From: Pedobacter nutrimenti
GTDB taxonomy: Bacteria; Bacteroidota; Bacteroidia; Sphingobacteriales; Sphingobacteriaceae
DNA: 64,000 nt
Direction of reading: 5' to 3'
NCBI RefSeq assembly: GCF_003208655.1
Contig: NZ_QKLU01000010.1
Location: forward strand, 124,001-188,000
Positions within the stretch are counted from its first letter, which is position 1, and each line of letters begins with the position of its first letter. This document shows, in pieces, positions 3,927 through 34,335 of this stretch. The position numbers were made by a program, and so were the translations under genes. The notes under the pieces are model-generated. The model saw nothing but the letters and a program-made list of their open reading frames with translations, had not been told where the DNA came from and ran no database searches.

Positions 3927-5612
3927 TTATAAACTAAGGGCTTTCTTTTGGGGCCTCGAAGCATTAAGGATCAATAGAGCAACCAGAAAAATCAGCCCCC
4001 CTACACCCATAACCGTTGCCCGGTGGCTGGAAGAAACATAGCCAAGAGCGCTTATTCCAATCCCTAAAGCGCTCAGTGAAACACCAATGACCCGTACCCC
4101 AAACCGGTTCTGTTCGGCCGCAGCCAGGTGCAGGGCCGGATCAAGCTTTTTAGTTTCCCCTGCCTTCATTTTTTCCATTTCCAGTACTTCTGGGGAAACT
4201 TTATGATGAATAAGGTAGTACAGCTCAAATGCCAAAAGCATGGCCAATGGGATACCCATCCCCAAAATGGTTTCTAGGGTTCTGTTTAATTTTAAATCCC
4301 ATAAAACAGGGCTCAGGACCTTCAGAAAAAGATTAATCACCAAAGCGGTCACTGTAGCGGTCACCACCGATAAGCCGGTTTGTCTTTTTGAAAATAAAGT
4401 CCAGATGATGGGCGCAAACAGGGCACCACCCGCAATTGAAGCCGTACTTAACACCACTTCCACAATTCCGCCTGCACTGGGAATCCAAATGGCCACCAGT
4501 ATGGTCCCAATCCCAAACAACAGGGTAAAAAACCTGGCCATCAGGATCACTTCTTTCTCTGTTGCCCCCGGGCGGATCAGTTTTTTATAAATGTCCTGTG
4601 CAAATACGGTCGCAGCCATATTAATGGTCGTATTGGCCTTACTGGAGGTCGCAGAGATCATACCCGCCAGGACCAGGCCGATCAGACCGGCCGGCATTAC
4701 TTTTTGGATCAGCATCATATAGGCGCCCTCTGATTCCAGCCCCTGCAGATTGGGGTTTATAATGCGGTAAATCATAGGCGGAAGCATCCAGATGACCGGA
4801 CTCACCAGATACAGCACAGTAAACAGACCAGAGACCTTACGGGCATTTTTCTCATTTGAAACGCTCGTATACCTTTGCACATAAGACCAGTTCCCCCCAA
4901 TATAAAAAGTCTGGTAAACAATAAATGCCAGCATAAAACCAAAAGTATAGTCCTGGTTAAAGGGCTTAAAAAAGTCCTTTGGTGCCTCTTTAATCAAATG
5001 TGATACCCCGCCAATGTGACCAAAAGCAATGGGAATTACAATCAGTACGGCAGCAGAAAGTACGACAAACTGTACCACGTCGGTAACCAGTACCGCCCAT
5101 AAACCGCCTGCAGCAGTATACAGCACAATGATCAGCCCAATGCCAATAATACACTGGTTTAAGGTGAAGGGGGTAGCCACATAAACCATTTTCCCAACGG
5201 GGTACAAGACCGCTGCAGTCGTAAAAAGGCTCAGCAGCAGTGTCATATAGGTATAAAATTGCTTTTCTTTAGAACCAAAGCGTTTGCCAATATATTCTGC
5301 TGCCGTAGCGACACCTGTTCTTTTCCATTTCGCCGCAATAAAAAGCGTTACAATCAGACCGCTGATGGCCATGGTCAGCTGTATGGCATTGGCCACCAAA
5401 CCACTGCTGTAGGCAATAGAACCCCAAACCACAAAAGTCCCTGCAGAAAAATAACTGACAAACAAAGAAAGCCCGTTGATCCACCAGGGCGTTTCTCCTC
5501 CGGCCTCAAAAAAGGCATTACCATTTTTACTGCTCATTCTGGTAAACGTTAAGCCGATGGCAAAAATGAGCAGGGCGAAAACGATCATCACTATAAAATC
5601 CAACTGTACCAT
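3927..5612 (-). CDS. Sodium:solute symporter (SSS family)
   Basis: A 561-residue polytopic membrane protein with about 13-14 hydrophobic segments, matching the usual length and N-terminus of the solute:sodium symporter family (PF00474). Recognisable features are the first helix followed by FFEAGGETPWWINGLSLF, and the conserved region ATSSKANTTINMAATVFAQDIYK near residue 325. It is the last gene of the ten-gene PUL (26 bp after the FAD oxidoreductase gene) and the only inner-membrane transporter in it. It therefore probably imports the mono- or oligosaccharide, or uronate, released in the periplasm. The substrate cannot be read from sequence. The start is the first ATG (MVQLDFIVM). Confidence 0.93.
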   Translation of the reverse strand: MVQLDFIVMIVFALLIFAIGLTFTRMSSKNGNAFFEAGGETPWWINGLSLFVSYFSAGTFVVWGSIAYSSGLVANAIQLTMAISGLIVTLFIAAKWKRTGVATAAEYIGKRFGSKEKQFYTYMTLLLSLFTTAAVLYPVGKMVYVATPFTLNQCIIGIGLIIVLYTAAGGLWAVLVTDVVQFVVLSAAVLIVIPIAFGHIGGVSHLIKEAPKDFFKPFNQDYTFGFMLAFIVYQTFYIGGNWSYVQRYTSVSNEKNARKVSGLFTVLYLVSPVIWMLPPMIYRIINPNLQGLESEGAYMMLIQKVMPAGLIGLVLAGMISATSSKANTTINMAATVFAQDIYKKLIRPGATEKEVILMARFFTLLFGIGTILVAIWIPSAGGIVEVVLSTASIAGGALFAPIIWTLFSKRQTGLSVVTATVTALVINLFLKVLSPVLWDLKLNRTLETILGMGIPLAMLLAFELYYLIHHKVSPEVLEMEKMKAGETKKLDPALHLAAAEQNRFGVRVIGVSLSALGIGISALGYVSSSHRATVMGVGGLIFLVALLILNASRPQKKALSL

Positions 5613-32634: not shown

Positions 32635-32722
32635 CCACTGCCTGCCTACCATAGCTCTACTGACTTTCCGAAAAGCATCATAATGGTCTGAATAAGACAA
32701 GAATAAAAAAAAACGAAACAAT

Positions 32723-32784
32723 CGATTTCAGGAAAATAATTCCAAACATTAAACGATTTCAGGAAGAAATTTCCAATAAACAAA
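32723..32784. repeat. Two 31-bp tandem direct repeats with GGAA-TTCC cores
   Basis: CGATTTCAGGAA begins at 32723 and again at 32754. Each copy contains an inverted core GGAA-5 bp-TTCC. It lies in the 650-bp gene-free stretch between the hypothetical gene and the ArsR operon, 150 bp before the 11-bp-periodic element. It looks like a duplicated protein-binding site. Confidence 0.5.
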
Positions 32785-32880
32785 CAAAATCAGTAATAAC
32801 GAATTTTGAACGAGTTCGAGTTCGCCTAAATCAACATGAATATCCGTACAAGACAGTTGGGTTATAAGGCCAGTTTACAG

Positions 32881-33067
32881 ACTGTTAAAATGCTAATAAA
32901 CTAAATGATTTACCTAGGGTTGAGCTAGGGTTGCCCTACCGTTGCTGTACCCTAGGGGTACGGCAACGGTAGGGCAAGGGTACAGCAAGGGTACGCCAAC
33001 CCTATAGTTATCCAGTGATTTATCAGTATTTTATCAGTGCTTTATCAATCGATTAACAGTACTTATG
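32881..33067. repeat. 11-bp-periodic palindromic repeat element
   Basis: From 32914 to 33067 the sequence divides into fourteen successive 11-bp units with no insertions, for example CTAGGGTTGAG, CTAGGGTTGCC, GTACGGCAACG, GTAGGGCAAGG, GTACAGCAAGG, GTACGCCAACC, CAGTGATTTAT, CAGTATTTTAT, CAGTGCTTTAT. Three more units (32881-32913) fit the same register. The centre (32931-32977) is a 22-bp inverted repeat with one G-T pair and a 3-nt loop. The flanks also mirror each other imperfectly, at 26 of 39 positions. There is no gene here. It is too regular for random AT-rich DNA and is not a CRISPR, since it has no spacers. Confidence 0.75.
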
Positions 33068-33097
33068 CCAAACCGGGCATAAAAAAATACACTAAAA

Positions 33098-33144
33098 TTT
33101 GCGTAGTTAAATAACTACACTTATATTCGTAGTCAAATAGCTAC
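33098..33144 (+). promoter_or_regulatory. ArsR-operon promoter with two operator palindromes
   Basis: TTTG (33098-33101), 20 bp, TATATTCG (33122-33129) is a promoter just upstream of the ATG at 33148. Two near-identical 16-bp palindromes, GTAGTTAAATAACTAC (33103-33118) and GTAGTCAAATAGCTAC (33129-33144), fill the spacer and the start region, 26 bp apart centre to centre. The layout suits repression by the ArsR-type product of the first gene. Confidence 0.75.
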
Positions 33145-33147
33145 ACG

Positions 33148-33471
33148 ATGAATTTAAGAAGAGATGTATTTCAAGCCATCGCAGACCCTACCCGAAGGGC
33201 TATTCTGTTGCTGCTTGCTACCCAGGCCATGACAGCAGGTGCCATTGCTTCAAATTTTAATACGGCAAGACCCACCGTTTCAAAACACCTGCAAATACTT
33301 ACCGAATGCGAACTGCTTGGACAAGAGCAAAATGGAAGAGAGATTTATTACCACCTGAATGCACAAAATATGAAAGAAGTAGCCGACTTTCTTGAACCTT
33401 TCCGCAAAATGTGGGACGAAAGGTTTAACAAACTGGAAGCCATAATGGAAAAGTACAAAACGAAAAAATAA
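33148..33471 (+). CDS. ArsR-family transcriptional regulator
   Basis: A 107-residue winged-helix repressor: [23 protein letters not shown], the recognition helix region [20 protein letters not shown] and the wing [13 protein letters not shown]. No cysteine pair of the metal-sensing CxC type is seen, so it is probably a non-metal member. Such ArsR proteins are commonly paired with AHSA1-like SRPBCC genes. It lies at the head of a five-gene operon and probably regulates itself at the palindromes covering its promoter. Confidence 0.93.
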
Positions 33472-33477
33472 AAAAAC

Positions 33478-33945
33478 ATGGAAGCAAAAACAAAAGTCAG
33501 TGCCCAGGAAGGCCAACAGGAGCTGGTGATTACCAGAACATTTGATTTACCCTTGGAATTGCTTTTCAAAGCCTATACAGAACCTGAAATTGTTGCGCAA
33601 TGGATGGGCACTAAAGTAATAAAACTGGAAAACAAAAAACACGGCAGCTGGCAATTTGAAACCAGTGATGCCAAAGGAAATGTCGCATTTCAGGCCCATG
33701 GGACGATACATGATTTTGTTCCAAACCAGAAAATCATCCGGACATTTGAAATGGAAAACGCCCCCTTTGATGTTCAGCTGGAATTTCTGGAATTTGAAGC
33801 CCTTACCGAGCATACCAGTAAACTCCGCATGCAGGTGGTTTACAAATCAGCGGCCCACAGGGACCAAATGCTAAAACTACCTTTTAGCCAGGGCATCAAT
33901 AGGGCACACAACCGCTTACAGGACATTATGAATACTTTAAAATAA
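33478..33945 (+). CDS. SRPBCC/AHSA1-like protein
   Basis: A 155-residue SRPBCC (START-like) fold protein of the Activator of Hsp90 ATPase (AHSA1)-like group: VITRTFDLPLELLFKAYTEPEIVAQWMG at the start, FQAHGTIHDFVPNQKIIRTFEM in the middle, and a C-terminal helix (FSQGINRAHNRLQDIMNTL). The fold makes a deep hydrophobic cavity for a ligand; the ligand is unknown. It begins 6 bp after the ArsR gene and is part of the conserved ArsR-SRPBCC pairing. Confidence 0.93.
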   Translation: MEAKTKVSAQEGQQELVITRTFDLPLELLFKAYTEPEIVAQWMGTKVIKLENKKHGSWQFETSDAKGNVAFQAHGTIHDFVPNQKIIRTFEMENAPFDVQLEFLEFEALTEHTSKLRMQVVYKSAAHRDQMLKLPFSQGINRAHNRLQDIMNTLK

Positions 33946-33951
33946 CGCATC

Positions 33952-34335
33952 ATGACAAAAAGAAACAAAATCATTTATTGGATTGCCACCCTCTGGCTTG
34001 CGCTGGGCATGCTGTCTACCGGGGCCGTTCAGTTGCTGAAAACCAAAGCAGAAACAGATCTTTTTCAAAGCCTGGGTTATCCTGTCTATCTTTTAGGCCT
34101 GCTGGCCATCTGGAAAATTTTAGGGGTTGTCGCAGTACTTATTCCCAAATTTCCTTTGCTAAAGGAATGGGCTTATGCAGGTTTTTTCTTTACCACTTCG
34201 GGTGCAATATTTTCCCATATTGCGATGGCAGAACCCCTCACCAAAACATTTCCGGCCTTGCTTCTTTTAATACTGACTTTGGTATCTTGGTATTTTAGAC
34301 CCGAAGACCGCAAAATCATTTCAGTTCAACCCTAA
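33952..34335 (+). CDS. DoxX-like membrane protein
   Basis: A 127-residue protein with four hydrophobic segments: IIYWIATLWLALGMLSTG, the PVYLLGLLAIWKILGVVAVLIP region, WAYAGFFFTTSGAIFSHIAMA, and TFPALLLLILTLVSWYF. It fits the DoxX-like (DUF417/DoxX_2) family, small inner-membrane proteins often found with ArsR-SRPBCC modules. Function unresolved; some members act in redox or resistance complexes. It lies 6 bp after the SRPBCC gene. Confidence 0.88.
   Translation: MTKRNKIIYWIATLWLALGMLSTGAVQLLKTKAETDLFQSLGYPVYLLGLLAIWKILGVVAVLIPKFPLLKEWAYAGFFFTTSGAIFSHIAMAEPLTKTFPALLLLILTLVSWYFRPEDRKIISVQP

Follow-up and report, generated by a model that had tools for sequence, protein, structure and literature searches.

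We identified a previously undescribed family of dispersed repeat arrays in Pedobacter, palindromic and phased at 11 bp, one member of which occupies positions 32881-33067 of the 64-kb stretch of DNA analysed here (the window). Home copies of the family lie directly upstream of a pair of DUF6266 genes, and the window array is thus an orphan copy. It is neither the only copy nor aperiodic, and the register is not lost in relatives. The literature searched yielded nothing relevant on palindromic or 11-bp repeats of Pedobacter, and no paper naming DUF6266 or PF19781 was found there.

The sequence-only reading of the window had described 32881-33067 as a palindrome built on an 11-bp period and had called for a periodicity test; both properties were borne out. 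At lag 11 the identity reaches 0.580 across 32881-33067 and 0.629 across 32914-33067, compared with a mean of 0.252 (sd 0.033, maximum 0.375) in 2000 dinucleotide shuffles, which places the element beyond every shuffle (0.58 vs 0.25, z = 10). Lags 22 and 33 are elevated too, neighbouring lags are at background, and the top line of the periodogram, at 5.5 bp, is the second harmonic of 11. The element also holds the top-scoring lag-11 segment of the 64-kb window (55/77). Dyad symmetry at 32954, scored with 60-bp arms, matches 38/59 pairs against a shuffle maximum of 31. The central inverted repeat (32932-32978, axis base 32954, centre CCCTAGGGG) has 22-bp arms at 32932-32953 and 32957-32978; it is present as claimed but imperfect, with one G.T mismatch. 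Like the other parts of the element, it is assigned to neither strand. Around it, the inner array (32913-33010) comprises nine 11-bp units of the form TTGNNNTASSS left of the dyad and SSSTANNSCAA right of it, whose TA dinucleotides at 32915, 32926, 32937, 32948, 32959, 32970, 32981, 32992, and 33003 keep an exact 11-bp register across the dyad. Further right, A+T-rich units of the CAGTGATTTAT type form 11-bp-spaced direct repeats (33013-33067) and recur in the genome copies on C3 and C4. The outer right units CAGTGATTTAT CAGTATTTTAT CAGTGCTTTAT (33013-33056) keep the 11-bp lag but run 2 bp out of phase with the SSSTA core, so the register described as unbroken over 32914-33067 is strict for the nine inner units only. 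The left outer region (32881-32912) mirrors the right outer units imperfectly.

Further copies turned up both in the host genome (G000) and in relatives, where the earlier reading had proposed to look. G000 carries three array copies and one remnant. The two full copies outside the window, at C3:209500-209652 and C4:434943-435111, have 78-80% identity, and the remnant at C1:1066489 (L068) retains its outer arms intact, whereas its inner palindrome has been removed between CCC repeats, a pattern that replicative deletion of a palindrome would be expected to leave. A sequence profile built from 13 copies matched the family in 41/145 congeneric genomes. With this profile, G102 and G045 each yielded at least 11-12 loci, and the best-covered genomes range from 3 to at least 12; these copy numbers are lower bounds because 24 candidates were scored per genome. 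The arrays measure about 100-190 bp overall with up to 17 or so units, each array is an inverted repeat in itself, and the unit consensus is SSSTANNSCAA or near it in nine genomes. Array loci are extragenic, repetitive, and palindromic, and the few that overlap short ORFs overlap probably spurious ones.

The home position was recognized from the C3 copy and copies in three other species, each of which is followed, about 200 bp downstream, by two genes in tandem. In the two pairs that were tested, each gene belongs to DUF6266 (PF19781; E values of 1e-22 to 3e-37). From the home copy to the first DUF6266 gene downstream of it, the distance is about 155-245 bp in G000, G012, G026, G014, G123, G106, G139, G102, and G045; in G118, G099, and G170, coordinates likewise place the array upstream of the pair. 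Among 40 further loci, DUF6266 adjoins the array only as the gene pair (G102, G045, G123, G106, G139), and the array is always upstream. Arrays occur in 20 of the 21 genomes with a strong match to the pair gene (E value of about 1e-78 or better, a threshold set after inspection) compared with 21/124 others (Fisher p = 3e-12, which is optimistic because the genomes are related). The window array shares its unit type with the array upstream of the DUF6266 pair in its own genome: for each of the window, C3, and C4 arrays the nearest neighbour is always another of these three, of which C3 is the home copy.

Orphan arrays often occupy matching loci in different species, and their spread is therefore slow. 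At nine loci of G102 and G045 with shared neighbour genes, the similarity between counterparts is 49-61; at 8/9 of them the G102 copies are closer to other G102 copies (mean 58-74) than to the G045 counterpart, whereas on the G045 side the counterpart and within-genome similarities are about equal. Array positions have thus been inherited and array sequences homogenised within the genome, a pattern that is clearer in one species than in the other. Units are permuted between copies. No obvious regulon emerged among the genes neighbouring orphan arrays.

The neighbourhood of the window copy is incidental. The element sits in a 652-bp gap between the left gene (32495) and ArsR (33148), in agreement with the empty interval of roughly 650 bp that had been noted. 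Downstream lie genes for an ArsR-type HTH regulator, AHSA1, and DoxX_2 (33148-34335, forward strand), preceded by two 26-bp repeats (CGTAGTNAAATANCTACAC; 33097-33146, forward strand) that lie outside the element in a promoter region conserved in the genus. More than 30 Pedobacter genomes conserve these repeats, which are likely ArsR operators. On the other side the array is abutted by a separate 150-bp repeat, block A (32711-32858, no strand assigned), which has two more copies in the genome. All of its copies there stand beside an array or the remnant (window, C3, C1), and it abuts the array in several species. Block A was rejected as a marker of the family: only 9/145 genomes have it, and the majority of arrays lack it, among them the home copies in G012 and G026. 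A search by motif for block A at full length was likewise set aside, its other hits having fallen inside unrelated coding genes.

Over 32 bp, block A matches (88%) sequence upstream of one DUF1016 (YhcG) gene in G116. DUF1016 was nevertheless rejected as the parent gene: about 60 other DUF1016 loci showed nothing convincingly similar to block A or to the array, G000 lacks DUF1016 altogether, and the 32-bp match was treated as chance or a shared promoter motif. In G116, a DUF1016 gene for a YhcG-type nuclease is flanked by a near-perfect duplication of about 65 bp (L078:3051-3128 and ~4343-4440) that matches the 3' end of the adjoining gene, and a relative in G144 (L129) has copies of the end of a tRNA gene on its flanks; the arrangement has the appearance of a mobile element of one gene, able to rebuild its target. 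Weak lag-11 signals (42 and 45 of 77) were seen upstream of DUF1016 genes in the related genomes G171 and G177 (L149, L150, ~1090-1330).

The link between DUF6266 and phased arrays extends across the genus and the phylum. Of the 145 genomes of the genus, 104 carry DUF6266 genes, often in large numbers. The 295 kb surrounding 45 such loci gave 25 lag-11 peaks of at least 43/77, compared with 0-2 peaks at lags 8-10 and 12-14 and with one lag-11 peak in a control of 218 kb around DUF1016 genes. In the genus, most array centres fall within one of two ranges upstream of the DUF6266 start, 90-210 bp or 290-360 bp. A scan of GTDB species genomes added 80 DUF6266 loci (Flavobacteriales, Bacteroidales, Chitinophagales, Sphingobacteriales, and others), a sample chosen by one conserved peptide and thus biased to the GILGGF subfamily. 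In their upstream regions, the 99th shuffle percentile was exceeded at lag 11 in 28/77 (median 273 bp upstream) and at lag 10 in 30/77 (median 111 bp upstream), compared with 4/77 at lag 9 and 1/77 at lag 12; a wider lag scan found strong 7-bp or 14-bp repeats as well at a few loci. The dyad score lay beyond every shuffle in 23/77, and eight Chryseobacterium/Epilithonimonas-type loci have the dyad at exactly -172. In L241, L243, L246, and other Flavobacteriales loci, the interval that separates the 11-bp palindrome from DUF6266 contains a second array, of 10-bp period and of the GGACATTNNC / GGTCATTTTC type, some 60-150 bp upstream of the gene. Under the scoring applied, roughly half of the DUF6266 genes have no detectable array: 33/73 are array-positive in the genus (where the counts include related genomes and some of the negatives are the second genes of operons) and 44/77 in the phylum (lag 10 or 11).

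Array sequence was shown to track the DUF6266 subfamily and not the genome. For pairs from different genomes, the array similarity score is at background (~10) where the proteins share less than 50% identity, 23 at 50-60% identity, and 48 above 60%, and different DUF6266 genes within one genome carry unrelated array units. This agreement could be simple common descent.

An AlphaFold2 model of DUF6266 (pLDDT 86) begins with a disordered stretch rich in Gly and Lys, followed by a beta hairpin, two helices, and, at residues 112-213, a beta sandwich resembling FN3 (VIA Z 11.7 in the fold comparison). The proteins are basic (median pI 9.4), with a net charge of +7 over the first 50 residues, from which a role of the N-terminus in nucleic-acid contact might be guessed. 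To our knowledge, FN3 folds are not typical DNA binders. The model contains no nuclease or transposase fold, the N-terminal half being barely covered by the fold comparison, and there is no significant sequence relative in the PDB. A plasmid or phage origin of DUF6266 was considered and rejected, with no tblastn match in plasmid or phage collections and no significant PHROG.

The earlier reading had suggested that the element might be an array of sites for a protein, that it might serve the nucleoid or recombination, or that it might belong to a mobile repeat family. That the repeats form a dispersed family is observed, and phased protein sites are the best-supported candidate mechanism. We favour, at a little under an even chance, the reading that the window array is an orphan of an 11-bp-phased family whose units are sites on double-stranded DNA, with DUF6266 as the likeliest binder and the home array as its operator or assembly platform. 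Each 11-bp unit would accommodate one protomer of a DNA-binding protein, and units one helical turn apart would present these protomers on one face of the helix; starting at the dyad, loading would proceed in opposite directions on the two halves of the array. The binder may well be DUF6266 itself, with its basic N-terminus and FN3-like domain. At home the array could then control the DUF6266 operon, and orphan arrays such as the window copy would provide extra binding sites, homogenised with the home copy.

Known systems offer partial parallels to such sites. The parC/ParR plasmid centromeres consist of helix-phased 11-bp iterons near the promoter of the operon that they serve. The arrays are similar in their 11-bp repeats, position, and helical phase, but are chromosomal, dispersed, and made of palindromic halves, and no ParM or ParR was seen adjoining home or orphan copies, whose nearest ORFs, judged by sequence, are DUF6266 or varied genes. 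With the phased operator arrays of autoregulated genes they share repeated sites upstream of a gene that they may control; up to about 17 units, a strict phase of 11 and then 10 bp, and genome-wide orphans set them apart.

The main rival to phased protein sites, possible but the less probable of the two, is that the arrays are REPIN-like, non-autonomous mobile palindromes, with the DUF6266 pair or an unseen nuclease as a domesticated spreader or homogeniser. The family resembles the population pattern described for REPINs and RAYTs (PMC3116915): dispersed intergenic palindromes with species-specific units, a home cluster beside a companion gene, and persistent populations. In its favour are the home copy by a gene pair, the intergenic orphans, and the homogenisation at fixed loci. 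The companion at the home copy, however, is the DUF6266 pair and not a Y1 (HUH) transposase, and REP units are 20-60 bp long and present in hundreds of copies, whereas the arrays have 11-bp units and reach about a dozen copies per genome at most, as a lower bound. The DUF6266 model, with the coverage noted above, contains no nuclease or transposase fold, the shared orphan loci speak for slow spread, and no empty site was found for the arrays and no target duplication defined.

It is improbable that the palindrome acts as RNA, as a terminator, an attenuator, or a stable 5' UTR hairpin. The array does fold well as RNA (z = -6.5), it lies upstream of genes, and in Flavobacteriales its centre is flanked by A6/T6. 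Mirror mismatches nevertheless show no excess of G.U, the mismatch that selection for an RNA helix would favour (67 G.T vs 69 A.C, with pooled orientations that would mask part of a bias), and the commonest are G.G and C.C (210 together). What is conserved is therefore the unit and not base pairing, and on these mismatch types an RNA hairpin was rejected as the main reading. In the median array, the longest stem without gaps and with a short loop measures 6 bp, only 6/40 copies lie between convergent genes, and no Rfam family reached its gathering score (best 25.8 bits vs a cut-off of 82). A conserved directional unit would fit recognition of double-stranded DNA.

Very unlikely is that the element derives from an insertion sequence, as a miniature form or a relic, with block A as the remaining part. 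In its favour, block A abuts the array in several species, and an IS3-like end with an integrase-core ORF lies beside the array in G102. Yet most arrays lack block A, those of other DUF6266 subfamilies have no sequence in common with it, and no intact IS with ends formed by the array was found. IS elements that insert into REP sequences are known, for example ISPpu9 (PMC8450116), and the IS3-like elements directly beside arrays in some genomes are similar; their ends look inserted beside the arrays, as of a visitor and not of the array source. Such ends (TGTCTTATACTG) lie directly by arrays at L345:3149-3421, where an integrase-core ORF also stands beside the array, at the right end of L057, and right of the array in L178. 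Their recurrence in several genomes suggests insertion targeting of the palindromes. Least probable of all is a neutral satellite of functionless 11-bp units made by replication slippage and template switching in a palindrome, which would account for unit gain and loss, the central deletion at C1, and permuted units but not for the phylum-wide tie to one gene family, the fixed distance from the gene start (the eight dyads at -172), or the strong enrichment of 10- and 11-bp lags.

For the DUF6266 family, which occurs across Bacteroidota and often in many copies, the arrays are a first functional handle: they give the protein a defined DNA partner and geometry, together with orphan sites at which an effect can be sought. 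Were DUF6266 to bind the arrays, an FN3-like fold would be serving in DNA binding; were it to move or homogenise them, they would form a REPIN-like system without a RAYT. A broader proposal, which we regard as rather doubtful, is that DUF6266 and its arrays constitute a phylum-wide DNA-array system, in which a basic FN3-fold protein would polymerise on phased 11-bp/10-bp sites and the array would have spread and been kept alike in some lineages. If true, one small protein family would write and maintain its own chromosomal docking sites.
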